Source: Sphingobium cyanobacteriorum (GTDB lineage: Bacteria; Pseudomonadota; Alphaproteobacteria; Sphingomonadales; Sphingomonadaceae). From it: 64,000 bases of DNA. The notes under the pieces are model-generated. The model had not been told where the DNA came from. It saw only the letters and a program-made list of their open reading frames with translations, and did no database searches. The first letter of the stretch is position 1. Every line of letters starts with the position of its first letter. The translations under genes were made by a program, and so were the position numbers. Positions 4,230 through 26,513 of this stretch are shown piece after piece. Where the stretch lies: the NCBI RefSeq assembly GCF_030580935.1, contig NZ_JAUQOM010000001.1, positions 744,001 to 808,000 of the forward strand, in the 5' to 3' direction.

Positions 4230-4282
4230 GTTCAGCCTCCATTTGCCCCCAGCCAGACGCCTTGAGGCCGCGTTGTCGTGGT

Positions 4283-6901: not shown

Positions 6902-7927
6902 TCAGGCGCAGGGCCCGCCGGAGTCCTGGGCAGGATGGTCCACGATTGTCTCGGCTCCGCCGGTCGAGCCACGCACGATCAGGCGGAGCGGGAAGTCGGG
7001 CGCGTCCTGCGCCTTTCCCAGGACGGCATCCACGCAATATCTTATGATTTCCTCCAGCGGCTGGTGAACAGTCGTCAGCGCGGGATAGACGATCCGGCTG
7101 TCCGATGCATTGTCGAAGCCGGCAATGGCCAGGTCTTTGGGAATGCGAAAGCCCAGATCCTGGGCGCAGGCCATCGCGCCCAGGGCCGCCAGGTCGCTGC
7201 CACCGAAAATCGCCGTGGGCCGGTCGGCCAGCGCCAGCAGGGACCGCGCAGCGATCACGCCGGAACGAAAGCTGAAATTGGTGCGCACGACCAGCCGGGG
7301 ATCAGGGCAAATCCCTGCATCTTCCAGCGCGTCCAGATAGCCCAGACGCCGATCATCGGCAGGATAATCCTCGCTCACGGCAGCAAGCATGCCGATGCGC
7401 CGATGCCCCTGCGCTATCAGGTGCGCCGTCATCTCTCGCGCCGCGACCCGCCCAGGCACGGGGACGCGAATGCCGGGGCCGCCATCACCCGCTTCGATCC
7501 GGGCAAAGGGAATGCCGAGTCCTGCCAGCTTCTCAATCAGCCTGATATTGTTGGAAAAAGGCGGCGCTACCACAATCGCGTCCGGCATGCAGGACAGGCG
7601 AAGCTCTATGTCCGATTGCAAGTCCGTGTCAAAAGCGTGGGTTTCGACCATGGCATGATAGCCATATCTGGCACAGGCCCTGGTCATTTCCATGATCATG
7701 CGGGAATAATAATCGCCGCCTTCGGCCGCGAGAAGCAGGGTGACAATGTAGGATTTTCCGCTCGCAAGCTGCCTGGCCCCAAGCGCGGGCCGGTAGTCCA
7801 GGTCCGAAATCGCATCGTCAATGCGCTGCTTGAGGCGCGGCCTGACAGTGTCGGCCCCGTTCAGCACCTTCGATACGGTCTTAATGGAAACGCCTGCTCT
7901 GGCGGCGACATCTGCGATGGTACTCAT
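6902..7927 (-). CDS. LacI/GalR-family transcriptional regulator
   Basis: 341 residues. The N-terminal LacI helix-turn-helix is clear (MSTIADVAARAGVSIKTVSKV), followed by the hinge helix (RQLASGKS) and a periplasmic-binding-protein-like sugar-sensing domain (GFDNASDSRIVYPALTTVHQP near the C-terminus). Start 7927 places the HTH at residues 3-23. It is divergent from the TonB receptor at 8176 and lies upstream of the GH3-esterase pair, both likely targets. A perfect 16-bp palindrome with central CG at 8013-8028 fits its operator. The inducer is presumably a sugar released by the GH3 enzyme; identity unknown. Confidence 0.9.
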   Translation of the reverse strand: MSTIADVAARAGVSIKTVSKVLNGADTVRPRLKQRIDDAISDLDYRPALGARQLASGKSYIVTLLLAAEGGDYYSRMIMEMTRACARYGYHAMVETHAFDTDLQSDIELRLSCMPDAIVVAPPFSNNIRLIEKLAGLGIPFARIEAGDGGPGIRVPVPGRVAAREMTAHLIAQGHRRIGMLAAVSEDYPADDRRLGYLDALEDAGICPDPRLVVRTNFSFRSGVIAARSLLALADRPTAIFGGSDLAALGAMACAQDLGFRIPKDLAIAGFDNASDSRIVYPALTTVHQPLEEIIRYCVDAVLGKAQDAPDFPLRLIVRGSTGGAETIVDHPAQDSGGPCA

Positions 7928-8012
7928 GTCGCCAGTGGCACGAACATGGGGCGGGCTGTCAATGCGAAAGCGGGAAAATCCGCGCCGGACCGACCATGGC
8001 AACCCAACGCTC

Positions 8013-8028
8013 GCATATGCGCATATGC
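8013..8028. promoter_or_regulatory. Perfect 16-bp palindrome, candidate LacI-type operator
   Basis: GCATATGCGCATATGC is a perfect even palindrome with a central CG pair, the usual geometry of LacI-family operators, placed in the divergent region between the lacI-type gene and the TonB receptor. Confidence 0.6.
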
Positions 8029-8114
8029 CCTGTGAAACCCAAGGGTGCCGGCCATTTCGGAACCGTCGCATGTGCGGCAGTCGCTCAAAAATAGCAGCGC
8101 TTCCCTTTTTGCGG

Positions 8115-8120
8115 TTGACA
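8115..8120 (+). promoter_or_regulatory. Candidate -35 element of the TonB receptor gene
   Basis: Consensus TTGACA about 55 bp before the start codon. The hexamer 17 bp downstream (CAGTCA) is a poor -10, so the promoter assignment is tentative. Confidence 0.3.
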
Positions 8121-8175
8121 TCCTGCCCTGCCGTGCGCAGTCATCGCCAAAATTCAAGACATAGGGGGGATGAAG

Positions 8176-10991: not shown

Positions 10992-13900
10992 TTAAGGTTC
11001 GCAATGCGTGAAAAGGCGGACAGGGCCTTTGAGGCCAGCCGATCGAAGTGGCGCATCTGGCCGATACATCTTGGCGCCTGCCGATGAAGGATTGTGCGCC
11101 GCTTCGCCGATCAGCCGGTTGACCCACAGATTTGCGACTTCGATCTTCAGCCGATTGCGTCCGGCTCTTATCATGGCTGAAACATTTACCCTGTGCGGCT
11201 GCGTCCATATCATGCCGGCCTCGATGCCGTTGACTGTGACTCTGGCAACATCGGCCATTGCGCCGAGATCAAGCCGGAAAACGGGTCTGGCACATGATGG
11301 CTTTGGCAATCGAATGGTGCCGGTATAGGTCGCCTTGCCTGAAAAATAGCGAAGCCTGGGATCGGATTGCTCATTCAGCCAATGCAGCGAGAAGGCACGG
11401 CGTTCGTCAGTGGCCAACCCAGGGGTTGCCAGCGAGACATGCCAACGATCATCGGCGGTCACGACCGATACGGGGTCGATCGGCGCAACAGCCTTTGCGC
11501 TGGCCAGATCGCGCGCAACGAGGAAGCGGCTTTGGTGGGGTGCAAGAGCGACATGGACGGCTCCGGCTTTTGCTCCCGCATCGACCTGCGATCCATCGAC
11601 CGCGTCCCACCATGTCGTCACGGCCTTTGCAGGGATCTGAAAATCGCCCTCCACATGCGCAGACCCGCGATTTACCAGGAAATAAATGTCGCCATCGGGC
11701 AAAACCCGGTGCAGCACGGAAAGGCCCTGGCCGGTAAAGCGCCAGTCCAGCGCCACTCGCAGCGATTTTGCCGCGGCCTCCGGCGTGTCAGCCTCAACGA
11801 CATGGGGAAGCGCCCATAATGTAGCGATGGCCTTTGCAACAGCTTTCGGATCGTCCGCCAGGCTTGGTGAATCGACTGGCCGCACGCCGGCGATAGCAAC
11901 GCCCTGCCTAGCAAAGGCAAGCAGTCGATTCAATGTCGCCAATGTCAGGCGCGCGCTGCTGCCGCCCAGGAACAGAAACTGATAGCTGTTACCGGAACGA
12001 TTGATGAGTTTGCCATCCTGAACGGCCAATCCCGACGCCAACAATGTCGCGTCGATGAAATCATAGTCCAGGCCGGACGGGACGCCTTCCGGTTCCTTGC
12101 CGCCGAATAATCCGGTGACTGGCGCTTCCTCGCCCACGAACCAGGCGAATCCCGCCTGCGGGCGCCCCTGCTGGAGCAGAAACTGCGTTCGGGCGAGATA
12201 GTCGGTCCACCCCTTGGCCATGTCGCCCCAGGCATCGTTCCGGTTGAAATAATGGCCCAGCAACGGGGCCATCGTCATCCCTGGAAACTGGCCTGACACC
12301 AGGTTGGAGCCGGTCCCCTGATGCACGGAGCTGTGGAGCATCAGGCGATTGCCGCCCATCAGGAACGCCAGGTCGGCCGCCGGGCGCATGTCCGCGGGAG
12401 AAAGACCCCATGGTCTGCCAAAAACGGTAAGCGCCTCGACCGCGATATAGGGCTTGCCCAAAATATGGGCGACGGACGCTGCGCCCTTCACATCGGCGAC
12501 ATAGGTTGGCTTCGGGCCGGTCGATGGATCGAACCACCACATGGCGCCGGCAGGCACGTCCGCCTTGGCCCGTATCGCCAGGTCGTTGCCCAGTTGGGGC
12601 CGGTTATCCTCCAGCGCTTCGGCATAATAGGTCAGCCCAGCCGCTTTGGCACGGGCCGCCAGGGTGCCATAATGCGCCTCGGTCAGCAGGTCGGATATCG
12701 TTCGGCGAAAGTCATACAGGAACGCATCGGATTGCGCCGGTTTCCCGACGATATAGCCCGCCAGCGCCGGATACCATCGGTCGAGGGCATAGCCTGTGCG
12801 GTTGCGAAATTGCGACGGCATATCGTCCGTCCAGTTTTGCGCCCCTGCTTCGATACTATCGCTCAAAAGACCGTTCAGGCCGACAACCCCTTTCAGCGCG
12901 GCACGCTGATCGGCCAGATAGCGATCAATATAGGCGCCGACGCGGCTGGCCGATAATTTGTCGACTTCCAGCCCGGTGGCCTCTGCAGGCGCGGGTCCGT
13001 TGCGATGGCCCGTCAGGGACATCCCAAATCGCAGGACCGTCCATGCGCCCTTTCCCGGCGGTATCCAGTCGAGCGTCCCGTCTGGTCCCAGGCGGGGAGT
13101 AAGGTCGATAATGCTGGCCGGATCAATGGACGGCCCATCGGTGTGCGTCGCGCGGGCATAATAATCCGGCACCGCAGCAAAGCCCGCCTTTTCCTCGGCA
13201 TTCTGGATCAGGCCAGCCGGAGACAGCAGCAATTCCGAAACGGCATAGGCTTGCTTTTGCGGCGGGAATGAAAGGGGGATGGCACCAGGCGCATAGTTCA
13301 GCCTTGCGCCCTCGCCTTGTGCGTCGGGTGCGATCGCCATTCTGAAATATCGTCCGCTAACGGCCGGAAAGCTTGCGGTTCTGACCGGCGATTTCGACGC
13401 ATATACTGTCGTGACGTTGCGATATGTCAGGCCGTCATCGCTGACTTCCAACCTGGCGACAGGTGGCGCGGGCGCACCGAAGCCGGCGGCGGCGGGCATC
13501 CCGATGCGGATGCTCCGAACAGTTTCCGGCCGGGCAAACCGATATATGATCCAGCCAATGCCGTCTGTGTCCGGCAACAGATCCTGCGGCTCGTCAAAAC
13601 GGCCATCGGCCAGCCGCTCTGCCGAAATGACACTGGACGAAGCTATGTTGTCGGCCTTCAATATGGTCCGGCTTCCGGGGAAGGCGATCACGGCGACATC
13701 GCGATAGAAGTCCGCGCCTGCGCCCTTGGTCAGCGGAACATCCTGATAGGCGCCTTCTACCACCGGGGGCCGGGCCAGACGGATCGGCATCTTGCCGCCA
13801 TCCCCGCGAACGACCGTTTCCGACCAGACCAGTTTTTTCATGGCATCGGCCGGCTGGACGAAAGGCGCGCCTGTCGCACTCCATCCCGGCGAGGTCGCAA

Positions 13901-14240
13901 TGCTGAAGTCCATGCCCCTTTCATGCGCGCGCTGCACGCTTTTCCGCATGGCATCCTGCCAGGCGGGGGACATCCACGGCTTCAACTCGGCAATCTGCTT
14001 TGGCGCACCCAGGCCGCCTTCGAACAGATGAATGCCACCAATAGCTTGGTCAGCCATCCATTCGATATCGGCAACCGCTTCGTCCGCGTCGATATTGCCG
14101 TTCATCCAGTGCCACCAGACCTGCGCCCGTGCGGCCTGCGGCGGATTGCGGAACTGATCCTCCAGCGAAGGACCGGCAACCACAGGCGTCGAAGCGGCGC
14201 TGGCCAATAGCAGCATGGGCAACCACATGGGGCGATGCAT
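10992..14240 (-). CDS. GH106-like alpha-L-rhamnosidase
   Basis: 1082 residues with a signal peptide (about 1-22). The N-terminal barrel opens with the family hallmark ARAQVWWHWMNGNIDADEAV and continues with GGIHLFEGG; candidate acidic catalytic residues lie in LLSDSIEAGAQNW and YIAVEALTVFGRPWG; beta-sandwich accessory regions and a jelly-roll-like C-terminus (ARVTVNGIEAGMIWTQP) follow. GH106 enzymes remove alpha-L-rhamnose from plant polysaccharides and flavonoid glycosides. It is the last gene of the long glycoside operon, 41 bp after the GH1 gene, with an AAGGGA ribosome site seven bases before the ATG. Family-level confidence is good; a relative acting on another deoxy sugar is possible. 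Confidence 0.8.
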   Translation of the reverse strand: MHRPMWLPMLLLASAASTPVVAGPSLEDQFRNPPQAARAQVWWHWMNGNIDADEAVADIEWMADQAIGGIHLFEGGLGAPKQIAELKPWMSPAWQDAMRKSVQRAHERGMDFSIATSPGWSATGAPFVQPADAMKKLVWSETVVRGDGGKMPIRLARPPVVEGAYQDVPLTKGAGADFYRDVAVIAFPGSRTILKADNIASSSVISAERLADGRFDEPQDLLPDTDGIGWIIYRFARPETVRSIRIGMPAAAGFGAPAPPVARLEVSDDGLTYRNVTTVYASKSPVRTASFPAVSGRYFRMAIAPDAQGEGARLNYAPGAIPLSFPPQKQAYAVSELLLSPAGLIQNAEEKAGFAAVPDYYARATHTDGPSIDPASIIDLTPRLGPDGTLDWIPPGKGAWTVLRFGMSLTGHRNGPAPAEATGLEVDKLSASRVGAYIDRYLADQRAALKGVVGLNGLLSDSIEAGAQNWTDDMPSQFRNRTGYALDRWYPALAGYIVGKPAQSDAFLYDFRRTISDLLTEAHYGTLAARAKAAGLTYYAEALEDNRPQLGNDLAIRAKADVPAGAMWWFDPSTGPKPTYVADVKGAASVAHILGKPYIAVEALTVFGRPWGLSPADMRPAADLAFLMGGNRLMLHSSVHQGTGSNLVSGQFPGMTMAPLLGHYFNRNDAWGDMAKGWTDYLARTQFLLQQGRPQAGFAWFVGEEAPVTGLFGGKEPEGVPSGLDYDFIDATLLASGLAVQDGKLINRSGNSYQFLFLGGSSARLTLATLNRLLAFARQGVAIAGVRPVDSPSLADDPKAVAKAIATLWALPHVVEADTPEAAAKSLRVALDWRFTGQGLSVLHRVLPDGDIYFLVNRGSAHVEGDFQIPAKAVTTWWDAVDGSQVDAGAKAGAVHVALAPHQSRFLVARDLASAKAVAPIDPVSVVTADDRWHVSLATPGLATDERRAFSLHWLNEQSDPRLRYFSGKATYTGTIRLPKPSCARPVFRLDLGAMADVARVTVNGIEAGMIWTQPHRVNVSAMIRAGRNRLKIEVANLWVNRLIGEAAHNPSSAGAKMYRPDAPLRSAGLKGPVRLFTHCEP

Positions 14241-14281: not shown

Positions 14282-15607
14282 TCAAAGCGCGTTATTGCGT
14301 GCAATGGTGCCCAACACCCCGGCGCTCGGCTTGGGCGTCCGTCGAAATGTCCGGCGATCCAGGTCATGCAATCCGAATTTGGGTTTGTAGCCAAAGCCCC
14401 ATTCAAAATTGTCGATCAGCGACCAGTGGATATAGCCCAGAACGGGAACGCCTTGCGCCATGAGCTTGTGCAGGTCCACAAGAGCTGCCGGAATGAGGCG
14501 CTGGCGAATGTGATCGTCGGGCGTATTCACGCCATGTTCGGTCACGATGACGGGCACCTTGGCGACCGCATGGGCATAGCGCACCGCGCCTGCCAATGAT
14601 GCCGGATAGACTTCGGTGCCAGCCGCGTTTCGATCCCCGCCGGCAGGCGGATCGACGCGACCCTTTGCATCCCAGATCGCCCGCTCGTAATTCTGGACAC
14701 CGACGAAATCATCCTGCCGGGCCGCGCGCAACCATGGCGCATACAGGCGTTCGCGAACATCGTCGCGCATGCTGTTGCGACCCACGGCCTGATCGTCGAT
14801 CATCGCCAGATTGACGCCCACGGGCAGGTCGCCGCGAACCGACTTGATGGCGGCACGCCCCAGGGCATGGCCTTTGAGCAAATGCGCCTGCACCGCTGCC
14901 GGATCGGGATACCAGATATTATTACCCGCCAGAAACAGCGGAACGCCATGGGCCTTGGCGATCGTTTCGCAGACCGCCTTGTCGGCCGGCAGCAACCATT
15001 TGGCCACGGCTTGGGGCAAGACGCTTGCCAGTTGCCCCGCCAGGTTAGGCTCGTTCAGCGTGGTGGCAACGCTGATCCCCTCAGCCAGATGCGTCGCCGC
15101 GATTTGGCAATAGCGCGCGAACAGGTCTGGCGCGTCCGGCTGGCTCCACCCCCCGCGCAACGCGAACCAGGCCGGTGTGGTAAAATGGTTGAAGGTCACG
15201 AACGGCTTTATCCCGCGCGCGTGACAGCCTTCGATCATCCGCTTGTAATGGTCGAGCATGGCGTTCGAAAACACGCCCATCCGTGGTTCGATCCGCGCCC
15301 ATTCCAGGCTGAACCGATATGTGTTCAGGCCCATGGCCTTGACCAGGTCCAGATCGACCGGCCAAAGTTCGAAACTGTTGGCCGCATCACCGGCTGGTTC
15401 GGCATAATGGCTGTTGGGCGCGCCTTCGACCAGCCACAAATCCGAATTGAGATTATTGCCCTCCACCTGATAGGCTGCGGTCGCCGCGCCCCACAGAAAG
15501 CCTTCGGGAAAGGCACGGCGCGGCGCGGCTTTGCCGAGTGAGGGGCGGGATATCAGCGCACTGCCCGCGATCGCCAGGCCGGTCGCGAATTGCCGTCGAT
15601 CCATCAT
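14282..15607 (-). CDS. GH1 beta-glucosidase, Tat-exported
   Basis: 441 residues. The N-terminus MMDRRQFATGLAIAGSALIS is a Tat signal. The barrel shows FLWGAATAAYQVEGN, acid/base Glu186 in TTLNEPN and nucleophile Glu357 in VIVTEHGVN (family ITENG), so the retaining beta-glycosidase machinery is intact. Such enzymes hydrolyse beta-glucosides, including plant aglycone glucosides. An AGGA site seven bases upstream supports the first Met. It sits between Gfo/Idh/MocA and GH106 genes in the same operon and likely acts in the periplasm on O-linked glucose. Confidence 0.9.
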   Translation of the reverse strand: MMDRRQFATGLAIAGSALISRPSLGKAAPRRAFPEGFLWGAATAAYQVEGNNLNSDLWLVEGAPNSHYAEPAGDAANSFELWPVDLDLVKAMGLNTYRFSLEWARIEPRMGVFSNAMLDHYKRMIEGCHARGIKPFVTFNHFTTPAWFALRGGWSQPDAPDLFARYCQIAATHLAEGISVATTLNEPNLAGQLASVLPQAVAKWLLPADKAVCETIAKAHGVPLFLAGNNIWYPDPAAVQAHLLKGHALGRAAIKSVRGDLPVGVNLAMIDDQAVGRNSMRDDVRERLYAPWLRAARQDDFVGVQNYERAIWDAKGRVDPPAGGDRNAAGTEVYPASLAGAVRYAHAVAKVPVIVTEHGVNTPDDHIRQRLIPAALVDLHKLMAQGVPVLGYIHWSLIDNFEWGFGYKPKFGLHDLDRRTFRRTPKPSAGVLGTIARNNAL

Positions 15608-15701
15608 TGCACGTTCCTGTCTTTCGTTGGTCTTGTCTGCGCGGCCGGACTGTTCGCGCGGGCATTGCGAGACGATTGCGTCGGGAAGATCGCGGAATCC
15701 T

Positions 15702-16853
15702 TCATTGTTCCGGCTCGGTCAGATCAACCCACTTATTGCCCGCGACGCTGCTGTCATGCGCTGCCTGGATGAATCGCATGCCGGCGATCCCGTCTGCCAG
15801 GCTGGCATAGGCCGGATGAGTGGGCGTGCGTCCGGCGACGGCTTCGGCAAAATCATGATAGATATTGGCAAAGGCCTCCAGATAGCCTTCGGGATGCCCG
15901 GCGGGCAATCGGACCGCCGCCAGTGCGGACGGGTCCAGCCACGCGCCATCGGTCCCGGCCCGCCAGATTTCCTCCGGGCCGGATCGGCGCGCGACCCTCA
16001 GCCTGTCGGGCTGTTCCTGCCGCCAGTGCAGCCCGGCTTCCTCGCACCATAGAGATATGTCCAGCCCATTGGCGTCGCCGGCGCAAATCTGGCTGGCGAT
16101 CAACGTCCCGCGTCCGCCGCCCGCCAGGTGGAACATCGCCGCGCCATCGTCGTCCAGCAAGCGTCCGGGCACTGCGGCGCGGATTTCGGCGGCGATGCGC
16201 GTCATCCTTTCCCCGGTGATGAATTCGACCAGGTTGAAGGCGTGGGTGCCGATGTCGCCGAACGCCCCGGCCAGGCCGGATCGGGCCGGATCGACCCGCC
16301 ATTGCGCCTGCTTGCCTGCCGCATCCTGCGCCGTGGCCAGCCATCCTTGCGTGTAGCGGACCGCGACGCGGCGCACTTTGCCGAACCCGCCTTGCGCCAC
16401 GAGCGCCCGCGCCTGCCGCACCATCGGATAGGCGCTATAGCTATGGGTGACGCCGACCATGCCCCCCGTCCGCTGCGCAACCTGCTCCAGATGAAGCGCC
16501 GCCGCCATGGTGTCTGTCAGCGGCTTGTCCACCAGCACCGCAAAGCCCGCTTCCAGCGCCGCAATGGCCGCGGGCGCATGGACGTGATTGGGCGTCACGA
16601 TCGCGATGAACTGGGCGCGTATCTGCGGCGGGAGAGCGGATTCGCGGGCGATCAGTTCGGCATAGCTGCCATAGCTGCGATCTGACGCGATCCCCGCCAT
16701 GTCGCCGGATCGGCGCGCCCGTTCGGCATCGCTGCTCAATGCGCCCGCGACCAGGCGGCAATTGCCCGCGATGGCGGCGGCCGTGCGGTGGACCGGGCCG
16801 ATGAACGCCCCTTCGCCACCACCGATCATCGCGTAACGAACCTGTTCTACCAT
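15702..16853 (-). CDS. Gfo/Idh/MocA-family NAD(P)-dependent oxidoreductase
   Basis: 383 residues, cytoplasmic. An N-terminal Rossmann fold (YAMIGGGEGAFIGPVHRTAA), the VTPNHVHAPAA strand and the catalytic-lysine motif VLVDKPLTD (EKP in relatives) are followed by the alpha/beta substrate domain (DIGTHAFNLVEF holds the usual DxGxH). Members oxidise or reduce sugars and inositols; in C-glycoside catabolism a homologue (DgpA) oxidises the sugar at C3. It lies between GH43 and GH1 in the operon that also encodes a CarB/CarC-like pair, so a 3-keto-sugar role is a reasonable inference but the substrate is unproven. Confidence 0.85.
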   Translation of the reverse strand: MVEQVRYAMIGGGEGAFIGPVHRTAAAIAGNCRLVAGALSSDAERARRSGDMAGIASDRSYGSYAELIARESALPPQIRAQFIAIVTPNHVHAPAAIAALEAGFAVLVDKPLTDTMAAALHLEQVAQRTGGMVGVTHSYSAYPMVRQARALVAQGGFGKVRRVAVRYTQGWLATAQDAAGKQAQWRVDPARSGLAGAFGDIGTHAFNLVEFITGERMTRIAAEIRAAVPGRLLDDDGAAMFHLAGGGRGTLIASQICAGDANGLDISLWCEEAGLHWRQEQPDRLRVARRSGPEEIWRAGTDGAWLDPSALAAVRLPAGHPEGYLEAFANIYHDFAEAVAGRTPTHPAYASLADGIAGMRFIQAAHDSSVAGNKWVDLTEPEQ

Positions 16854-16907: not shown

Positions 16908-18596
16908 TCACGCCAATGCTTTGTAGAAGAAGCGCCGGAACCTGACCGATCCGTCCCCGGTTGCAAACAGGGCGGGTCTCAGGCTCAGCAGGTCGTCCAT
17001 CGTATTGGCATGATAGCCCGACACTTCGTTGCGGACGCCGTGACGGGTCCATGTCGCGCCGTCCATGCTGTAATAGAATGTCACGATCTGATGCGCGTTG
17101 ACGATTCGGAGGAACAGTTGGCGCGAAGGCGGCGCGGGTTCGACCCAATAGCTTGGCTTGCCACCGCGATAGGTGATCATTGTCTGCCCGTCGATGCCCA
17201 TGCCCAGGAACAGCCGGTCGTTGAAGAAGAGCAGCAGGCCGCCCGTCGCTGCGCCAACCAGTTCCAATGCGACGCTGACGTCGTAGGCGCGGTCGCCGAC
17301 CTGCTGGACGAGGGGCGCGCTATCCTGCGGGCCGGTCCCCTTCCCTACCAGGGTCAGCGCGCCATGGCTGACGGATACGCGCCCGGCTTCGGCGGGGGCG
17401 CTGCCATGCAGGTTCCATCTTGTGCCCAGGCTTGCCTTGGCGAAATCGTCCGATCGCGCGAAACCGTGGGCAAGCGCGCGTCCTGCCGGCTTTGGCAACG
17501 GCCTGGACAGGTCGCCGCCGGTGGCCTTGAACCATCCATCGACCGTCCATGCGATCGGCTCCAGCAGCGTCTGGCGGCCCAGCGAGCGATAGCCGTTCTC
17601 GAACCCGTGATACATCATGTACCAGCGTCCGTCGGTGCCCTCGACACAGGTTGCATGCCCCCGCGACCACCACATTTCCGTGTCGCTGCGCGTGCGCTGG
17701 ATCGGATTATGCGGGCAATGCTCCCATGGGCCATGGATCGACCGGGATCGCGACGCGACGATCATATGGCCGGTGGCAGGGCCGCCGGTCCCGCCGACCG
17801 CGCTGACCAGATAGAAATAGGCGCCGCGCCGGAACAGCTTGGGGCCTTCGAGCGCATAGGCTTCGGTGATCCAGTCGTCCGGGTAGCGCCAGCCTTCATA
17901 GACGGTATCGACCGGGCCATCGGTGCGAAGGCCATCTGCCGACAGGCGCACCCGCTTGCCCGCGCTCAGGAACAGATAGCGATGGCCGTCCTCGCCCACG
18001 ACATGGCCCGGATCGATCAGCCCTCCGATGCCCAGGTCGATCGGGTCGCTCCACGGGCCGTCGATCGACGGGGCGTGGATGACATGGATGTTGGCGAAGC
18101 TCGCCAGCCCGGTGGACCAGGGCGCCCGCATGAACGGGATATAGATGAAATAGCGGTCGCCATGCTTGACCAGGTCCGGCGCAAACACCGTGCCCAACGG
18201 CTTGTGCAACGCCGGGCCAACCGGCGACCAGTTCACCAGGTCGCGGGAATGCCAGATCAGCAGGCCCGGCGAGGCTTCGAACGAGGAATGGGTCATGTAA
18301 TAATCATCGCCGTCCTTCAGGACGGACGGATCGGGATAGTCGCCCGCGATCACGGGGTTGAGATACAGGCCGTTGCCCAGATCCGCCTTGCGCTGACCTT
18401 CGATGCCACCGGCCCATTGCGGCGTATCGGCGCGGCATGCTGCATTGGCTGCATTGGCTGCATTGGCTGCATTGGCTGCATTGGCTGCATTGGCTTCATC
18501 CGCATGCGCCGATGCGCGGGCTGTGGGAGCAAGGGCTGCGGGCATCGCGGCAACGCCCGCGACGGCGAACCTCATCGCGTCCCGGCGCGTTGTCAT
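16908..18596 (-). CDS. GH43-family glycosidase (xylosidase/arabinosidase-like) with NAA repeat
   Basis: 562 residues. A Tat-like signal (TTRRDAMRFAVAGVAAMPAAL) is followed by a low-complexity (NAA)n tract at about 35-52, then a five-bladed propeller domain beginning NPVIAGDYPDPSVLKDGDDYY with the catalytic Asp of DYPDPS and an acidic EGPKLF motif, and a C-terminal beta-sandwich (GLLLFFNDRLFLGMGIDG) as in GH43 xylosidases. Such enzymes release xylose or arabinose. The six 9-bp repeats encoding the NAA tract are perfectly identical and so may vary in number between strains. Operon member between GMC and Gfo/Idh/MocA genes. Confidence 0.85.
   Translation of the reverse strand: MTTRRDAMRFAVAGVAAMPAALAPTARASAHADEANAANAANAANAANAANAACRADTPQWAGGIEGQRKADLGNGLYLNPVIAGDYPDPSVLKDGDDYYMTHSSFEASPGLLIWHSRDLVNWSPVGPALHKPLGTVFAPDLVKHGDRYFIYIPFMRAPWSTGLASFANIHVIHAPSIDGPWSDPIDLGIGGLIDPGHVVGEDGHRYLFLSAGKRVRLSADGLRTDGPVDTVYEGWRYPDDWITEAYALEGPKLFRRGAYFYLVSAVGGTGGPATGHMIVASRSRSIHGPWEHCPHNPIQRTRSDTEMWWSRGHATCVEGTDGRWYMMYHGFENGYRSLGRQTLLEPIAWTVDGWFKATGGDLSRPLPKPAGRALAHGFARSDDFAKASLGTRWNLHGSAPAEAGRVSVSHGALTLVGKGTGPQDSAPLVQQVGDRAYDVSVALELVGAATGGLLLFFNDRLFLGMGIDGQTMITYRGGKPSYWVEPAPPSRQLFLRIVNAHQIVTFYYSMDGATWTRHGVRNEVSGYHANTMDDLLSLRPALFATGDGSVRFRRFFYKALA
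18442..18495. repeat. Six perfect 9-bp tandem repeats inside the GH43 gene
   Basis: GCATTGGCT is repeated six times without a mismatch, encoding an Asn-Ala-Ala tract just after the signal peptide. Being in multiples of three, copy changes would lengthen or shorten the linker without a frameshift. Confidence 0.95.
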
Positions 18597-18632: not shown

Positions 18633-20276
18633 TCAGGTCTGGTTGTCACGGGCGTCCTGCGCGATCAATTCGGCGGCGCGCCATCCGATCACCATTGCCG
18701 GGCCATTGGTATTGCCTGCGGGCGGAACAGGCATGACCGAACAATCCACGACCCGCAAACCGTCGATGCCATGCACACGCAACCGGCTGTCGACGACGCT
18801 GTCCTGCGCTGGTCCCATCCGGCAGGTGCCGGTCGCATGGATGCCAGGGCTGGTCAGCCATTCCAGGGCCTCACCAATCTGATCGTCGGTTTGGACGGAT
18901 GCGCCCGGCACCACTTCGTCGCCGACAAAGCGTTTGAGCGCCGGCTGCGCCATGTATCGGCGGACCAACCGCACCATATCGATCATGAAGGCCTTGTCGG
19001 CGGGATCGCCCCACCAGTTGGCGTCGATATCCACCATGTCGGCGACATCGCCCGACCGGATCGACACGCTGCCCCGGCTTTTGGGGCGCAGGGCGATGGC
19101 GTTCACGGTGATGCCCGGCTTGTCCTCCAGCGCGCCGCGCCCCGGATCGGCCTTCATCTCCTCGGACGATCGCATCGAAAACGGACCGATGCCAAATTGC
19201 ACGTCGGGCCAGTCGGCGGGGGACCGCATCGACAGGAGGGCGGTGACTTCCGGCGAGGTATAGGCCATCAGCCCCTTGCGCGTCAGATAATAGCGGGCGA
19301 CATGAGTCATCAGACGCCAGCCGGAAAATTCGCGATTGGCGCCGGGATCATTGTGCAGGCGGTAGGATATCGAAAACATCGCGTGATCGGCCAGGTTACG
19401 GCCAACCGCGGGCAGGTCGTGCAGCACCGGCACACCGGCCTGCGCCAGAACGTCCGCAGGGCCGACGCCCGATAGCTGCAACAATTTGGGGCTCTGGATG
19501 GCACCGGCGCTCAGGATCACGTCGCGGCGGGCACTAAAGCTCTGCACGCCGCTGTCGGTGCGGGCCCGCACGCCGGTCGCGCGCTTGCCTTCAATCTCCA
19601 CCTTTTCCACGACCGTATCGGTCAGCACGACCAGATTGGGCCGCCGCATCGCCGGCTTCAGGAACGCCTGATAGCTTGATGCCCGGCGCCCCCGCCGGCT
19701 CACGGTCGCCTGGGTATAGCCTATCCCGGTCGTGCCCGGCATATTGATGTCGTCCAGCCGGGGCAGGCCCATTTCGACCCCTGCCTCGATGGTCGCGGCG
19801 ATGGCCGGCGACCGATAGGGTAGCTGCGTGATTTGCAGCGGACCGCCTTTGCCGCGTGAGGGATGAGCGCCAGTGTCGCGATAGCTTTCCATCGCGCGAT
19901 AGCAGCGCTCGATTTCGCTCCAGCGCCATTCGCCATGCCCCGCCCGCGCCCAGCCATCAAAGTCGGCGGGCATGCCGCGCAGATACCAGGTGCCGTTGGT
20001 CGAGCTGGAGCCGCCGAGGCCACGGCCATAGGGCCATATCTCGCCCTCCGGCCGCCCGGCCTGCGCCTTGACCGGGAAATGCCAGAAATGCGTCGGATTG
20101 CCGAACATCTTCATGAAGGCGCGCGGCATGTTCACCAGTTCGGTCTCGTTGCGACCGCCTGCCTCGATCAGCAGCACGCGGCTGTTGCCGTCCGCGCTCA
20201 GCCGGTCGGCCAGCACGCAACCCGAAGAGCCTGCGCCAACGATGATATAGTCGAATTCGGTATCGGCAGAGGTCAT
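18633..20276 (-). CDS. GMC-family FAD-dependent oxidoreductase
   Basis: 547 residues, choline-dehydrogenase-like. It has the FAD dinucleotide motif YIIVGAGSSGCVLADRL, the GMC signature LGGSSSTNGTWYLRG, the second signature LSAGAIQSPKLLQLSGVGP, and catalytic His in GIHATGTCRMG with Asn in AGNTNGPAMVIG. It oxidises an alcohol with FAD. In known C-glycoside routes an FAD enzyme (CarA) oxidises glucose C3 of the glycoside before CarBC acts; this gene could fill that role, although it looks closer to the choline/alcohol-dehydrogenase branch than to pyranose oxidases. Thirteen bases separate it from the MFS gene upstream. Confidence 0.85.
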   Translation of the reverse strand: MTSADTEFDYIIVGAGSSGCVLADRLSADGNSRVLLIEAGGRNETELVNMPRAFMKMFGNPTHFWHFPVKAQAGRPEGEIWPYGRGLGGSSSTNGTWYLRGMPADFDGWARAGHGEWRWSEIERCYRAMESYRDTGAHPSRGKGGPLQITQLPYRSPAIAATIEAGVEMGLPRLDDINMPGTTGIGYTQATVSRRGRRASSYQAFLKPAMRRPNLVVLTDTVVEKVEIEGKRATGVRARTDSGVQSFSARRDVILSAGAIQSPKLLQLSGVGPADVLAQAGVPVLHDLPAVGRNLADHAMFSISYRLHNDPGANREFSGWRLMTHVARYYLTRKGLMAYTSPEVTALLSMRSPADWPDVQFGIGPFSMRSSEEMKADPGRGALEDKPGITVNAIALRPKSRGSVSIRSGDVADMVDIDANWWGDPADKAFMIDMVRLVRRYMAQPALKRFVGDEVVPGASVQTDDQIGEALEWLTSPGIHATGTCRMGPAQDSVVDSRLRVHGIDGLRVVDCSVMPVPPAGNTNGPAMVIGWRAAELIAQDARDNQT

Positions 20277-20289
20277 GAGGAGGCTCTTT

Positions 20290-21483
20290 TCAAGCGGTGG
20301 TGGCGTCCTGTCGGCGCCCCATGGAAAAGCGGACGAGCGCGGCGAAGATCAGCGCGATGACGCCCATCATCAGGATCGCAGGATCAAGGCCGCCAGCCCG
20401 CCCGACTATGGCGGACAGGATGGGAGGGCACAGGAAGGCGCCCGCGAAGAAGGACGTTGCCCATATCCCCATGCCGCGCCCACGCTGGTCGAACGGCAAC
20501 CGTGCCTGGCCCCAGGCCAGCAGTGCGGGAATGACCATGCCGCCGCCCAACTGCTGGACGGTGGCGCCGGCCACTGCGCCATAATAGCTGGTCGTCAGGC
20601 CGATCAGGATCATCCCTGCGCCGATCAGCCCGCCGGCGATGCCCAGCAACGCGCCGATGCTGTGACCATGCAAACGCCGGTACAGGAAGGCGCCCGCGAT
20701 GTAGGCAAGGCTGGTGGCCGCCTGGATCAACCCGACCTGGGTGGATGATCCGGCGCCGCGATCCGCCAGGATGGTCGCGATGTTCAACGGCTCGACATAA
20801 TAGATGATCGACGCGATCAGTGTGACCGACCCGATGGACAAGGCCGCAGCCCAGGGAAAGCCCGCTGGCTTGCCGGCCCGCCGGCCGCGATCGTCGGACA
20901 CAGGTTCATCGATGAAGGCGATGGCCATCAGCAGCAGCGGGACCGCCAGCGCATAGATGGCAAAGGGGCCGCGCCAGCTTGCATCCGCCAATATGCCGCC
21001 CGCCGCGATCAGCACCGTGCCGGCGATCGATGTCGCCGCCCCGGTCCAGGCGACCCAGCGATAGCGCTGATCGCCGAAATAATCGCCGATCAGCGCACTG
21101 GAAATCGTGATCGCAAAGGCGTCGGCCAAACCGAGCACCGCGCGGCTGGCGACGATCAGGATCAGATCGTCCACCACCAGCGGCGTCAGGCCGGCCAGAA
21201 TATAGAGCGCAATGCCACCGACAAAGGCCGGACGGCGGCCAAAGCGATCCGCGATCCATCCCGCCGCCGGCGCGAACAGCGCCGCGCACAGGGACGGGAT
21301 AGTGACGATCATCGGCACCAGCAGCCCGGCGTGCGGCAATCCGCCGAAATGCGCGAACAGCTTGGGGATGGCCGGGAAAAGAGCGACGATGGCCATGACA
21401 GGCAGGACCTGCGCAAAGACCAGCGTTACACCCTTGGCCGTCGGGTGTCGCAGCGGCCTGGCCTGCTGGAACGTCGCTGCCAT
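20290..21483 (-). CDS. Major facilitator superfamily transporter
   Basis: 397 residues with about twelve hydrophobic segments and the loop motif AGWIADRFGRRPAFVGG after TM2 (MFS motif A). Nine bases separate its start from the CarC-like gene. Expected to carry a glycoside, sugar or aglycone across the inner membrane, matching the outer-membrane receptor at the head of the operon. Direction and substrate cannot be told from the sequence. Confidence 0.88.
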   Translation of the reverse strand: MAATFQQARPLRHPTAKGVTLVFAQVLPVMAIVALFPAIPKLFAHFGGLPHAGLLVPMIVTIPSLCAALFAPAAGWIADRFGRRPAFVGGIALYILAGLTPLVVDDLILIVASRAVLGLADAFAITISSALIGDYFGDQRYRWVAWTGAATSIAGTVLIAAGGILADASWRGPFAIYALAVPLLLMAIAFIDEPVSDDRGRRAGKPAGFPWAAALSIGSVTLIASIIYYVEPLNIATILADRGAGSSTQVGLIQAATSLAYIAGAFLYRRLHGHSIGALLGIAGGLIGAGMILIGLTTSYYGAVAGATVQQLGGGMVIPALLAWGQARLPFDQRGRGMGIWATSFFAGAFLCPPILSAIVGRAGGLDPAILMMGVIALIFAALVRFSMGRRQDATTA

Positions 21484-21492
21484 GATCAGCCC

Positions 21493-21882
21493 CTATGCCG
21501 CCAGGGTCGGCGCCAAAGTCAGCGTCTTGCTGTCCTCCGCCACCAGCGGGAAGGGAAGATAGGATATGCGCAGGACTTCCTTGAGCGACAAATGATGATC
21601 GCCCGCGGCCAGGGGCTGCGGACATTGCACCATGATCGTCGCCTTGCTGCCAAAGGGCCAGCGCCGGTCATAGGCATGTTCCATGTCGCAAAGCGCGATC
21701 GGCCCCTTGCCTTCATCGAACAGGATCGCGTCGCGGGGCACGGCCTGGCCGTCAACGCTCACCACCAGGTCCTCGATCATCGACAGGCCAAGGCCGCGAT
21801 AATAGCCCAGCATGACATCGAAGGAAAAGCCGTCCGCGGTGCTGCGCAGGCTGCCATCTACCAGAATATATTTGTCGAACAT
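21493..21882 (-). CDS. C-glycoside deglycosidase beta (small) subunit-like protein
   Basis: 129 residues, all-beta, no signal peptide. The landmarks YYRGLGLSMIEDLVVSVDG, the DRRWPFG stretch and the closing VLRISYLPFPL match my knowledge of the small subunits of 3-keto-C-glycoside deglycosidases (CarC, DgpB; DUF6379 family), about 130-140 residues in that family. The small subunit packs on a TIM-barrel alpha subunit and contributes to the active site. The gene follows, by 59 bp, exactly such a TIM-barrel gene, which strengthens the call. Biochemical activity on a C-C glycosidic bond is inferred; action on 3-keto O-glycosides is an alternative. Confidence 0.78.
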   Translation of the reverse strand: MFDKYILVDGSLRSTADGFSFDVMLGYYRGLGLSMIEDLVVSVDGQAVPRDAILFDEGKGPIALCDMEHAYDRRWPFGSKATIMVQCPQPLAAGDHHLSLKEVLRISYLPFPLVAEDSKTLTLAPTLAA

Positions 21883-21941
21883 CGCGTCAATTGCCTTTCA
21901 AAATGCAGGGAACGGCCAGCATGTGCGATAGCGCCGGGGCC

Positions 21942-22958
21942 TCAGCCAACGGCGTCCGCAGCGCTCCGCGCCTCGGCCTTGGCGATCAACTGTTCGAACA
22001 TGATGTGCTGACGCCGCACCTGTTCGCGGCTGTCGACCGGCTGCACATCCTGAACCCAGCGATTGCCTTCATATTCGCTCGACAGATAGCCTTCCCAGCC
22101 ACCCGCGACGAGTTCGTTGATGACCTCCTCATAGGCATGGGTCGGATCGGTGCAATCTGCATCCATTTCATAGAATTTCGCCTGGATATGGCGGAAATAG
22201 GGAATGTAATCGCGGATACGCCTGGGGTTGGCATAGGGGTGATGGCGCAGCGTTTCGGCCATCGCCACTTCCGCCTTGTTGCCCTTCATCTTCACGGCGA
22301 CTTCGTAGATGACATATTCCGCCATGATCTTCTGTTCATGCTGGTCCAGGATGAACTCGACGACCTCCGGCCGGGCGCCCTGCCGGATGAAGCGGTCGCG
22401 AAAGACTGGCGGATAATGTTTCATGAAAATGCCCATGTCGGGCAACAGGCCAAGATGCCTGGTGCCCAGCCGGTCGGCCACTTCCACCGTGCGCAGGATC
22501 CAGGCATGGTCCATATGCCAGGGGGCATGGACTTCCACCCCCATATGAACGTCCAGTTCTTCGGCATAGGGAACACAGCGTTCCAATATGTCCGGTCGCA
22601 CGAACACCAGCACCCGCATGTTGCGAATGCCCAGCCTGTTGCAGAGCAGGAGATCGCGGCGGATCGACGCGACCTGCTCGTCATCGGTCATCAACCGGTC
22701 CTTGCGGATCTTGGTGTCCAGGAACATGTCGTAACAGGTCAGTTCCGCGCCATGCCGCGCCATCATCTCCTGCCACGCGGCAATGTCATGATCCGATATG
22801 TTCGGGAATGCCGGCATATTCTGTTCAGGCAGGATTTCGATCCCCTTGGCGCCGATGGACGCGGCAAAGGCGACACAGTCGTCCACCGTCATCTGCCCCA
22901 GGAACATTTCCTCCTGAAAACTGTAGAGGCTGACGCCGCGTTTGATTTTGGAAGTCAT
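21942..22958 (-). CDS. C-glycoside deglycosidase alpha subunit-like TIM-barrel protein
   Basis: 338 residues of the sugar phosphate isomerase/epimerase (xylose-isomerase-like TIM barrel) superfamily, no signal peptide. Opens KIKRGVSLYSFQEEMF; probable metal ligands are Glu in GVEVHAPWHMDH, Asp in LGLLPDMGIF, His in FRHIQAKFYEMD and Glu in LSSEYEGNRW, the Glu-Asp-His-Glu set used by this superfamily for Mn. CarB/DgpC-type alpha subunits share this fold and are always paired with a small beta subunit, as here (next gene). The pair would cleave 3-keto glycosides by deprotonation at C2 and elimination of the aglycone. Second gene of the operon after the TonB receptor. Confidence 0.78.
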   Translation of the reverse strand: MTSKIKRGVSLYSFQEEMFLGQMTVDDCVAFAASIGAKGIEILPEQNMPAFPNISDHDIAAWQEMMARHGAELTCYDMFLDTKIRKDRLMTDDEQVASIRRDLLLCNRLGIRNMRVLVFVRPDILERCVPYAEELDVHMGVEVHAPWHMDHAWILRTVEVADRLGTRHLGLLPDMGIFMKHYPPVFRDRFIRQGARPEVVEFILDQHEQKIMAEYVIYEVAVKMKGNKAEVAMAETLRHHPYANPRRIRDYIPYFRHIQAKFYEMDADCTDPTHAYEEVINELVAGGWEGYLSSEYEGNRWVQDVQPVDSREQVRRQHIMFEQLIAKAEARSAADAVG

Positions 22959-23047: not shown

Positions 23048-25390
23048 TCAGAATTCAAATCCGAAATTGACGCCGATCTGGCGGACGGAATTGAAATTGG
23101 TCAGGAAAGCCGTGCCCAATCGGCCGTTATTGGCCTCGCCCGGATCGATGCTCAGCGACGATGGCACGAACTTGTCGGAACAGTTGCGGCAGAAGATCGA
23201 CGCACGCCAGCCGTTCAGGCTTTGCAGCCCGATGCTCGCGCCCAGCGTCTCATAGCCGCCCAGCCGCGTCCCCGGCGCCTGGTTGATCGTGAACCATTGC
23301 GACGAACGATGCAGGATATTGCCTTCGACAAAGGCGTTGAGCGATGCGTCGAGCGCCCACTCATATTGCACTTGCGCCGTGGCGACCAGTTTGGACGAGG
23401 CGGGCGTGCGCAAGCCGCCTGCATTGAACTGACGGCCGGTTGCCACATTGCAGGATGCATCAGGCTGGCCGACATAGCATTCCGTGCCGGGGAAATCCTG
23501 GAACTTGGAATCCAGCAAGGTTGCCGCCAGGTTGAAGGTCAGGCCGCGCTGCGGCCGCGCGTTGATCGACAGTTCGATGCCCTGGCTCTTGGCCGACGCC
23601 GCATTTTGAACGATGGTCGATCCCAATTCCGGGTTGAAGGACGACACCTGAAGATTTTTGAACTTCGACCGGAATGCCGCCAGATTGAATATCAGCTTGC
23701 GGTCCAGCAGGCTCGACTTCAGACCCACTTCGATATTGTTGTTGATCTCCGGCTGGACGACCGGCGACACGCCCAGGCGGGGGACATTCTGCGAGAAGCC
23801 CGGCCCTTTATAGCCGCGTCCGAACGTGCCGTAGGCCATGATGTCAGGCGTGAAATTATATTGCGCGCCCAGACGATAGCTGAAATTGGTATTCGATACC
23901 TTGTCGGACGTGACAAGCGGAACGCCCAATGTCACGAAATACAGGCCTTGATGCTGCGCCAGATCGGCGCTGAGCCGGTCGTGCGTGACACGCCCGCCCG
24001 CGATCAGTTTCAGATTGTCGACCACTTCATAAGTGAATTGCCCGAACGCGGCGTAGCTTTTGCTCTTAAGGTCGAACTTGCCGTCCTGCCCCAGGAACGC
24101 CGTATTGCTGCGCCGGCACTGGCCAGGCCCTGTGCCGATGTTGGTCGCACCGACGCAGAAGGGGAAATTGGGCAGCACGACCGCCGGCAGGAAGTTGAAC
24201 CCATAAAGGGCACTTTCGTTCTTGGTATGGCCGCTGTAGAAAAACAGGCCCATCTGTCCGGTGAAACGATTGGCCGCGGGCAGCGCGACCCGCAATTCGT
24301 TCGTAAACTGGCTATAATCCGTCTTGGACTGGTTGATGTCGACGCCGTTCACATTGGTATAGTCGGTATCGAAATTCTGGCGACGGCTTGCCGCTTTCCA
24401 TGCCGCGATATTGCTGACCTCGACACCGGACGGCAATTCATACGACAGTTTCGCCTGGATGCCGCCACGCTTCACGTCCCGGTAGAAATCGCCTCCACCG
24501 CCGATCAGCAAGTTGCCCAGGCCAGGCTCGATGCCGATAGCCTGCAATGGTCCCCGCGCCTGGGCATTGGGCGCCAGGCTGGCATAGGGGCGATCAAAAT
24601 AGGTCGCGATGCCATGTTCTTCATTATAGTCGCCAATGATGTAGAGCGAGACCGCATCGCTGAATTCGACCAGATATTTTGCGCGCACCCCATATTGGGT
24701 CTGGCCAAAATCGCCCTTGCCGCTGCCGATGAACTTCACCACCGGATCCTGCGACGAATAGACCGCATTGATGCGCAGCGCGGATTTTTCGCTGACCGGC
24801 AGATTGATCGTGCCCTGGCCGATGAAGCCCAGCCCATTATTTGGCGTGGTCGGCCGATGAACGCCCTCAAGCTGAAGGTCGCCGCTGAACTTGCCCAGTT
24901 CCGGGCGCCGCGTCACGATGTTGAGCAGGCCGGCCGACGCATTCTTCCCGAACAGCAGGCCCTGCGGTCCGCTCAACACTTCGACCTGTGCCACGTCGTA
25001 AAATGTGCCGACCGCGCCGCCCAGGATCGAACTGACCAGATTGACTTCATCCTGCGCGATGGCGACGCTCGATTCCAGCCCCTGCTGAAATGCCAGGGTG
25101 CCGACGCCGCGCACCGTGAAATTATTTTCGCCACTGACCTGAAGGCTGGGCGCGGCCTGGCTCAACTGGCTCAGATTGCTGATGCCGCGCGCCTCAAGCC
25201 CTTCGGCGGTCACTGCGGTGACGCTGACCGGCACGTCCTGCAGGCGCTCCGCGCGGCGCTGGGCCGTGACCACGATATCGGTCGAACCGTCCGTCGCCAT
25301 GTCCGCCTGGGCGGGCAGGCTCGCCGTATCAGCCTGCGCCAGCGCTGGCGTGGCCGCACCAAGAAACAGCGTGAATATCAGCTTGTGCAT
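23048..25390 (-). CDS. TonB-dependent outer-membrane receptor (head of glycoside operon)
   Basis: 780 residues. Signal peptide ends near PALAQA; plug domain DIVVTAQRRAERLQDVPVSVTAV, FTVRGVGT, VEVLSGPQGLLFGKNASAGLLNIVTRRP; beta-barrel ending IGVNFGFEF. A strong AGGAGGG ribosome site lies nine bases before the ATG. It is first in a minus-strand run of nine closely spaced genes and is divergent from a NodD-like LysR gene, so it most likely imports the glycoside that the operon degrades. Confidence 0.93.
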   Translation of the reverse strand: MHKLIFTLFLGAATPALAQADTASLPAQADMATDGSTDIVVTAQRRAERLQDVPVSVTAVTAEGLEARGISNLSQLSQAAPSLQVSGENNFTVRGVGTLAFQQGLESSVAIAQDEVNLVSSILGGAVGTFYDVAQVEVLSGPQGLLFGKNASAGLLNIVTRRPELGKFSGDLQLEGVHRPTTPNNGLGFIGQGTINLPVSEKSALRINAVYSSQDPVVKFIGSGKGDFGQTQYGVRAKYLVEFSDAVSLYIIGDYNEEHGIATYFDRPYASLAPNAQARGPLQAIGIEPGLGNLLIGGGGDFYRDVKRGGIQAKLSYELPSGVEVSNIAAWKAASRRQNFDTDYTNVNGVDINQSKTDYSQFTNELRVALPAANRFTGQMGLFFYSGHTKNESALYGFNFLPAVVLPNFPFCVGATNIGTGPGQCRRSNTAFLGQDGKFDLKSKSYAAFGQFTYEVVDNLKLIAGGRVTHDRLSADLAQHQGLYFVTLGVPLVTSDKVSNTNFSYRLGAQYNFTPDIMAYGTFGRGYKGPGFSQNVPRLGVSPVVQPEINNNIEVGLKSSLLDRKLIFNLAAFRSKFKNLQVSSFNPELGSTIVQNAASAKSQGIELSINARPQRGLTFNLAATLLDSKFQDFPGTECYVGQPDASCNVATGRQFNAGGLRTPASSKLVATAQVQYEWALDASLNAFVEGNILHRSSQWFTINQAPGTRLGGYETLGASIGLQSLNGWRASIFCRNCSDKFVPSSLSIDPGEANNGRLGTAFLTNFNSVRQIGVNFGFEF

Positions 25391-25531: not shown

Positions 25532-25592
25532 AAATTGATTGTTTTGATGCTGATCTACCGATATTCGACATGCATCTGGCAGGAGGTTCGTG

Positions 25593-26513
25593 ATGCGTTT
25601 AAAGGGCCTGGATCTGAATTTGCTCGTGGCGTTGGACGTTCTGCTGGAAGAACAGAATGTTACGCGCGCGGCCAACCGCATGCATGTCGGCCAGTCGGCC
25701 ATGAGCGCGGCGCTTGCCCGCCTGCGACAGCATTTCGAAGATGAACTGCTGATCGTAACGGGGCGCCGGATGATGCCGACCGCCTTGGCGGAATCGATGC
25801 GCCAGCCGCTGCGCGAAGCGATCCTCAGAATCACCGGCGTTGTCGAGATCGAACGCTCGTTCATCGCCGCGACCTCGACACGGCGCTTCACGATCGAAAT
25901 GCCGGACCATCTTGTGCCGGTCATCCTGCCCGCTTTGACGCGCCGCCTGTCGCGTCATGCGCCCCACCTGATGCTGGAAGTGCGTCCCCCTGTCGGCGAT
26001 CCGTCGCCATTGCTGCACAAGGGCGAGCTTGACCTTGTCCTCACCCCCAGCATCTATTCCGACCCGGAATATGTCATCGAACCGCTCGTCGCCAACGACC
26101 TGGTCCTGGTCGGCTGGCGGGACAATCCCGCCCTACAGGTACAGCCCACGCTGGAAACCATCATGGCGCTGCCCCAGGCGATCGTCAAATTCGACCGTGT
26201 CAGGCTGGCGAGCATCTTGTCCGAACAGCAGCTTTCCATTTACGGTGGCACAGGGCGTATTGCTCTGGTCGCCCCGAATTTCAGTTGCATCCCGCCCAGC
26301 CTGATCGAAACCAACCTCATCGCGATCCTCAATAGCCGCCTCGTCAGGGCGGCAGAGCGGAACCTGCCGCTGGCGGTCTGGAATGTCCCGGTGCCGATGC
26401 CCACCATGATGGACGTCATGATGTTCCATCAGATACGCAAGCAAGATAGCGGCCTGGCGTGGCTGCGCGGCCAATTGCGGGAAACCGTCGCGGAAATCGA
26501 CGATCATGGTTGA
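25593..26513 (+). CDS. LysR-family regulator, NodD-like
   Basis: 306 residues. The first residues ([20 protein letters not shown]) and the HTH ([32 protein letters not shown]) follow the NodD pattern ([18 protein letters not shown]...SQPAMSAAxxRLR) almost residue for residue, then a co-inducer-binding domain starting [19 protein letters not shown]. Start ATG 25593 lies six bases after AGGAGG; a GTG at 25590 is too close. NodD proteins sense flavonoids, and NodD-like LysRs in sphingomonads often control aromatic catabolism. Placement opposite the glycoside operon makes it the likely activator. Inducer unknown. Confidence 0.9.

Follow-up and report, generated by a model that had tools for sequence, protein, structure and literature searches.

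The gene pair at positions 21493-22958 of the 64,000-nucleotide stretch of Sphingobium cyanobacteriorum DNA analyzed here (the window) probably encodes a C-glycoside deglycosidase (a 3-keto-glycoside β-eliminase) of the CGD family, embedded in a putative operon of nine genes that would serve the catabolism of decorated plant glycosides; we assign this reading a probability of roughly 0.78. The α subunit, a TIM barrel of 338 amino acids recognized by sequence, fold and structure matches, is encoded at 21942-22958, and the β subunit (CGDB/DUF6379, 129 amino acids), recognized by Pfam, sequence and fold matches, at 21493-21882. The two genes lie on the minus strand, 59 bp apart, with the lengths and coordinates given in the initial annotation, and its sequence landmarks (GVEVHAP, LLPDMG, RHIQAK, SSEYEG, YYRG..SMIEDL and VLRISYLPFP) are all found in the translations. 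Both reading frames exhibit an in-frame GC3 bias. Comparison with Sphingobium sp. RAC03 yields dN/dS values of 0.072 for α and 0.110 for β, indicative of purifying selection. The window genome contains one CGDB gene.

The α chain is assigned by Pfam to the AP_endonuc_2 TIM barrels. The β chain matches Pfam CGDB (PF19906) with E = 1e-27 and 96.6 bits against a cut-off of 27.6, and does not fall into an unrelated family, the outcome that the initial annotation had named as fatal to its proposal. The solved proteins closest in sequence are the two chains of the Deinococcus enzyme 8qvc (8qvc_A for α, 7.9e-111; 8qvc_B for β, 4.7e-28). AF2 single-chain models, computed with alignments of 20 (α) and 25 (β) sequences, have pLDDT values of 92.1 and 90.5, respectively. 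The α model superposes on 8qvc_A with an rmsd of 1.2 Å, 52% identity and a Z-score of 46.3 over 323 residues, and the β model on 8qvc_B with an rmsd of 1.1 Å and 43% identity. In the Foldseek search with the α model, rows 1-16 are all CGD chains; the E value then drops from 2.5e-19 at row 16 to 1.7e-12 at row 17, which is 4ovx, with a Z-score of 26.9 compared with 46.3 for 8qvc_A. The large subunit is modeled as the TIM barrel that had been proposed, and the small protein, described earlier as all-β, is a β-sandwich in the model but also contains two short helices. β adjoins α in 66/66 relatives, with one intervening gene in 14 of them. The family assignment holds because both predicted folds match D. 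aerius 8qvc, and as the nearest solved structures of both chains are CGDs, the earlier description of a CarBC/DgpBC-type α/β pair in a sphingomonad is borne out. The pair is a genuine, well-conserved CGD of known family, distinguished by an uncommon residue at the metal site and an uncommon probable oxidizing partner.

According to Mori et al. (PMC8563793), the metal ligands of AgCGD2 are Glu147, Asp179, His269, Lys271 and Glu305, with His149 as the base and Glu307 in a supporting role. The aligned window positions are Glu142, Asp174, Gln259, Lys261 and Glu295 for the ligands, and His144 and Glu297 for the other two. Glu142, His144, Asp174, Lys261, Glu295 and Glu297 match their AgCGD2 counterparts (Glu147, His149, Asp179, Lys271, Glu305 and Glu307, respectively), and these six catalytic or metal-binding residues are conserved in every aligned α chain. 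The ligand His269 is not matched: Gln259 (codon CAG, 22182-22184, minus strand) is an unusual residue at this predicted metal-ligand position. The Glu-Asp-His-Glu metal set of the initial annotation must therefore be corrected, since the histidine of RHIQAK is His257, two residues ahead of the ligand position. That histidine was considered as a ligand and rejected, the offset to AgCGD2 being -10 for Lys271, Glu305 and Glu307 alike; by this uniform offset His269 corresponds to Gln259, and the alignment with 8qvc is free of gaps along the same stretch.

A contig scan with two peptide patterns lacking site 259 yielded 66 loci, comprising 61 from Sphingomonadales, 2 from Ideonella and 3 from Clostridia. 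The residue at this site is Gln in 63/63 Sphingomonadales and Ideonella loci and His in 3/3 Clostridia loci. A further 46 loci (L001-L026, L121-L140) include L020, which ends before site 259, and L121, which yielded no α chain; the 44 that are readable at the site have Gln in 15 cases and His in 29. Among solved structures, alignment places His at the site in 8qvc, 7bvr, 7bvs, 9m3a and 9m3b, and AgCGD2 is a sixth example (PMC8563793). The Microbacterium testaceum CGD, 8qrz, aligns with Gln at the metal-site position. His269 is thus the usual CGD ligand and is not taken here as family-defining, and the idea of Gln as a sphingomonad-only trait was rejected.

The distribution of the two residues was also followed on trees. 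The second of these has 31 rows, two solved CGDs having been added, seven redundant rows removed and column 259 excluded, and rejects a single Gln clade (AU p = 5e-5); the earlier set of 36 rows did not reject it (p-AU 0.054). The 31-row result is preferred, as it includes the solved Gln-type enzyme, and both trees take in only seven α chains of the 66 loci and contain long branches. Two His-bearing branches, D. aerius and a further sphingomonad clade, join the window clade with support of 97/97; 8qrz joins EuCGD (His) and two more Gln-type sphingomonad proteins with support of 100/99. Two His/Gln changes are required on the 31-row tree, a count that does not separate gain of Gln from its loss. 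Gln-type CGDs are present in two genomes of Ideonella (Burkholderiales; L086 and L087), and the nesting of the L086 α chain, the one placed in a tree, inside the sphingomonad clade suggests a lateral transfer.

The pair sits in a row of nine minus-strand genes separated by gaps of 89, 59, 9, 13, 36, 54, 94 and 41 bp, which we infer to form one transcript. The putative operon begins with a TonB-dependent receptor (23048-25390), followed by α, β, an MFS transporter (20290-21483) that is a probable inner-membrane uptake protein by its domain match, a choline-dehydrogenase-like GMC oxidoreductase (18633-20276), a GH43 glycosidase (16908-18596), a Gfo/Idh/MocA oxidoreductase (15702-16853) proposed as the 3-keto-sugar reductase, a GH1 glycosidase (14282-15607) and, as the last gene, a GH106 α-L-rhamnosidase (10992-14240). 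The Gfo/Idh/MocA protein matches 3v5n in the PDB at 4.8e-86 and DgpA1 (9m3d) at only 6.2e-5. By eye, leader-like N-termini are seen in GH43, GH1 and GH106, and none in α, β, the GMC enzyme or the Gfo/Idh/MocA protein. A LysR regulator (25590-26513, plus strand) is divergent from the operon and occupies the same place in RAC03. On plasmid pBSY17_1, Sphingobium sp. RAC03 has the genes in this order, apart from one extra gene, sugar phosphate isomerase-like, between Gfo/Idh/MocA and GH1. Against RAC03, all nine genes have dN/dS values of 0.07-0.14.

The operon hydratase, present in RAC03, is absent from the window. Between Gfo/Idh/MocA and GH1, blastn against the RAC03 locus (L149) identifies a remnant of roughly 31 bp from the beginning of the hydratase gene (15675-15705, minus strand), the remainder being deleted relative to RAC03. 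Sphingobium sp. Leaf26 (L047) likewise has a member of the hydratase family at this position. The family seen in the sister operons has a match in PDB 8ro4, a 2-hydroxy-3-keto-glucal hydratase; the copy from the window's own genome that was compared with this entry gave E = 1e-177. Elsewhere, the window genome encodes two homologues, with 81% and 70% identity to the L040 copy used as query.

These elements can be combined into a putative pathway. The TonB receptor would bring the glycoside into the periplasm, where GH106, GH43 and GH1 would trim O-linked sugars, and the MFS protein would import what is left, probably a C-linked glucoside. The GMC enzyme, for which no leader is seen, would then oxidize C3 of the sugar, and the α/β pair would eliminate the aglycone with the assistance of Tyr28 of β, the metal being held by Glu142, Asp174, Gln259, Lys261 and Glu295 and His144 acting as the base. 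The resulting 2-hydroxy-3-keto-glucal would be hydrated and subsequently reduced by the Gfo/Idh/MocA enzyme. From the distribution of leaders noted above, trimming would be periplasmic and elimination cytoplasmic; as the operon has lost its own hydratase, hydration is assigned to the product of another genomic locus.

The GMC enzyme scores 451 and 382 bits against two choline dehydrogenase models, both under their cut-offs (605 for the 451-bit model), and 22 bits against the pyranose oxidase model (pyranose_ox). Its best PDB matches, among the best 60 of 72, are a chloramphenicol-inactivating oxidoreductase and choline dehydrogenase. No pyranose_ox match over the cut-off of 544.9 was found in the window genome, where two matches of 56 and 49 bits lie away from the locus. 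A search of 298 genomes of the family, in which up to four first-look candidates were scored per genome, gave 53 matches in 42 genomes listed at E <= 1e-120. The eight best (557-1253 bits; genomes G000, G157, G119, G281, G127, G001, G207 and G095) all have a CGD gene 0.2-7 kb away; the ninth (508 bits, G114) belongs to a genome without a CGDB match. Since the eight best matches all lie near a CGD, the GMC enzyme is the likely C3-oxidizing partner, unlike CarA or DgpA. In 11/11 relatives that have the GMC gene at >=60% identity, the MFS gene lies less than 100 bp away from it. In five genomes, a divergent CGD pair is faced by a GMC enzyme 48-50% identical to the local one, and a GMC enzyme of Novosphingobium aromaticivorans shares 51% identity with it. 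To our knowledge, no C3-oxidase activity has been measured in this GMC clade.

The oxidizing partner is not fixed across the relatives, because the local type of GMC enzyme (at least 60% identity) is found near only 11/63 close relatives, a second type, accompanied by a Gluconate_2-dh3 partner, near 15/63, and 9/17 CGDB-bearing genomes of the family have no such GMC enzyme listed near their CGD. The counts in the 63 loci are lower bounds, the flanks being unequal and reaching 8 kb on both sides in 42/63. The second type resembles the large subunits of fructose and glucose dehydrogenases and is presumed to be GlycDH-like. The two types never occur together at 60% identity (0/63 loci; P = 0.037 if equal flanks are assumed), but at about 50% they co-occur in L075 and L078, where the second type neighbors a protein 52-53% identical to the local enzyme, leaving the exclusion between them weak. 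The partners named in PMC12724307 and PMC10628242 are CarA/PurA, DgpA and GlycDH, and the former source mentions PurABC homologues in Pseudomonadota. A search of mainly open-access literature turned up no article that names a sphingomonad CGD, or this GMC type in the partner role.

An alternative that we regard as rather doubtful is that C3 oxidation is carried out in trans by the second GMC type, with its large subunit and Gluconate_2-dh3 protein, and that the local GMC enzyme acts on the aglycone or on an alcohol. The window genome holds two such gene pairs (L118 and L120), the frequency of this type near the relatives and its presence in L075 and L078 are compatible with such a role, and the local enzyme looks like a choline dehydrogenase. 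Against it stand the proximity of all eight closest homologues of the local enzyme to CGD genes and the start of its gene only 13 bp behind the MFS gene; the non-overlap of the two types is a weaker argument, given the two loci with both. According to Bitter et al. (PMC10628242), PuCGE cleaves 3-keto C-glucosides and one 3-keto O-glucoside, and its β Tyr39Phe variant loses nearly all C-activity at only a 2.4-fold cost on the O-glucoside. The initial annotation's description of the two-subunit arrangement as the hallmark of 3-keto C-glycoside splitting is overstated in light of the O-cleavage. The preference for C- or O-glycosides, which it had left open, is narrowed by Tyr28 of β (codon 21799-21801, minus strand), which aligns with position 39 of 7bvr_B (native numbering assumed) and is Tyr in 66/66 relatives. 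As the counterpart of Tyr39, the determinant for C-glycosides in PuCGE, this residue favors C-glycosides as substrates, judged from the alignment, with O-glycosides as possible further substrates. C-glucosyl flavonoids or xanthones are the most probable natural substrates, and the pair probably also acts to some extent on 3-keto O-glucosides.

That the pair mainly serves O-glycosides, eliminating aglycones from 3-keto O-glucosides with C-cleavage minor or absent, appears unlikely. It would agree with the specific activity of PuCGE on 3-keto-phlorizin, which approximates its activity on 3-keto-nothofagin but is considerably lower than on 3-keto-puerarin (PMC10628242), with the presence of GH1, GH43 and GH106 in the same gene row, and with the replacement of Tyr303 of PuCGE α by Asn299 (pairwise alignment; a gap in PuCGD in the multiple alignment). 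However, Tyr28 of β is invariant, the nearest solved relative, from D. aerius, also has Asn at site 299 and is deposited as a C-glucosyl deglycosidase, and the pair lacks a leader that GH1 apparently has, suggesting that simple O-glucosides would be cut before import. An AtOGE-like enzyme, whose presence would have pointed to separate handling of O-glycosides, was sought at L118 in the same genome, yielding one ORF without a PDB match at 1e-3; the other candidate ORF there has IolE as its best match and a weak match to the hydratase. The main points against a C-glycoside deglycosidase as such are the O-cleavage by PuCGE (PMC10628242) together with the O-glycosidases around the pair, the loss of the operon's own hydratase, and the Gln at the ligand position, given that His-to-Ala substitution dramatically reduced the activity of PuCGD and MiCGD (PMC8563793). 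Taken further, the Gln substitution and the deleted hydratase could mean that the pair is a relic and no longer active. This is highly improbable: Gln is invariant in 63/63 relatives and shared by the solved M. testaceum enzyme, the dN/dS values of both genes are low (0.072 and 0.110), and hydratase homologues persist in the genome.

Among known systems, the CGD of D. aerius TR0125 (8qvc, 8qvd, 8umc) resembles the window pair in both subunits, fold, length, the E/H/D/K/E/E residues and Asn at 299, and differs in its metal-site His. In the related Deinococcus aetherius, the neighboring GMC enzyme is only 27% identical over 86 amino acids to the local one. The M. testaceum CGD (8qrz, 8un2) shares the metal-site Gln and 100/258 identical positions in an alignment of the available stretches, but its subunits are fused, with β first, and it lies on a separate tree branch; a literature search found no paper on this enzyme. 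CarABC of Microbacterium sp. and PurABC of Paenarthrobacter likewise employ a two-subunit lyase after flavin-dependent C3 oxidation and come from soil bacteria (PMC8563793, PMC12724307). C-glycoside oxidases like CarA and PurA show a relationship to pyranose oxidase (PMC10807413), and in contrast to these systems, no pyranose-oxidase-like enzyme is encoded with the lyase in the window. DgpABC (PuCGD) of the intestinal strain PUE has a homologous lyase pair whose Tyr39 of β has a counterpart in the window, and an α chain with 26-27% identity; it differs in that oxidation is performed by the NAD-dependent DgpA (PMC12724307), and it forms a hetero-octamer (PMC8563793). The Agrobacterium GlycDH-AtOGE-AtHYD-Gfo system follows the same order of oxidation, elimination, hydration and reduction, with a hydratase family common to both; AtOGE itself differs, as it is reported (PMC10628242) to be O-specific and without sequence relationship to CGDs.

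A broader proposal, to which we give a little less than even odds, is that at least two CGD lineages (sphingomonad and M. testaceum) independently swapped His for Gln and kept it, retuning the metal site in metal and substrate, and that the GMC clade constitutes a further class of C3-oxidizing partner beside CarA, DgpA and GlycDH. Plant C-glycosides withstand ordinary glycosidases, and their breakdown by soil and plant-associated Proteobacteria has been little studied. If the proposal is correct, sphingomonads have a complete C-glycoside route with a new kind of oxidizing partner, and the repeated His/Gln change opens the function of this metal ligand to direct tests by single-residue swaps in either direction, with harmless soil bacteria as the enzyme source. 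Genetics should be possible, as RAC03 carries the full gene row and N. aromaticivorans DSM 12444 has a GMC gene of this type next to a CGD pair.

CGDB is found in 17/298 genomes of the family and 16/94 of the genus. In the phylum sample it occurs in 4/398 genomes, with 3 over the cut-off, all from the window's own family. Group-II α chains are also carried on Sphingobium and Novosphingobium plasmids. A divergent CGD clade (L031, L034, L040, L042, L044 and L152; 27-28% identity to the window α in the four measured) faces a divergently transcribed GMC gene of the local, choline-dehydrogenase-like type, in clusters that also hold a second CGD pair, and plasmid pNL2 of N. aromaticivorans DSM 12444 shows this arrangement too. 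In 14/63 close relatives (L056, L057, L061, L063, L068, L078, L079, L095, L096, L100, L102, L103, L105 and L106), the gene between α and β encodes about 300 amino acids with a leader-like start. In the two scanned, L056 and L095, it is an α/β hydrolase (Abhydrolase_3), possibly a deacylase for acylated glycosides.

Elsewhere in the window genome, L118, L119 and L120 contain further parts of glycoside-oxidation pathways, comprising the second GMC type with Gluconate_2-dh3, Gfo/Idh/MocA, hydratase, GH3 and TonB receptors. Within the window, a neighboring group at 3255-10599 encodes an esterase-like protein, GH3, a LacI regulator and a second TonB receptor, and perhaps belongs to the same plant-glycoside island. 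The GH43 protein has a short Ala-Asn-Ala repeat just past its leader (~18430-18500), which is perhaps variable in length.
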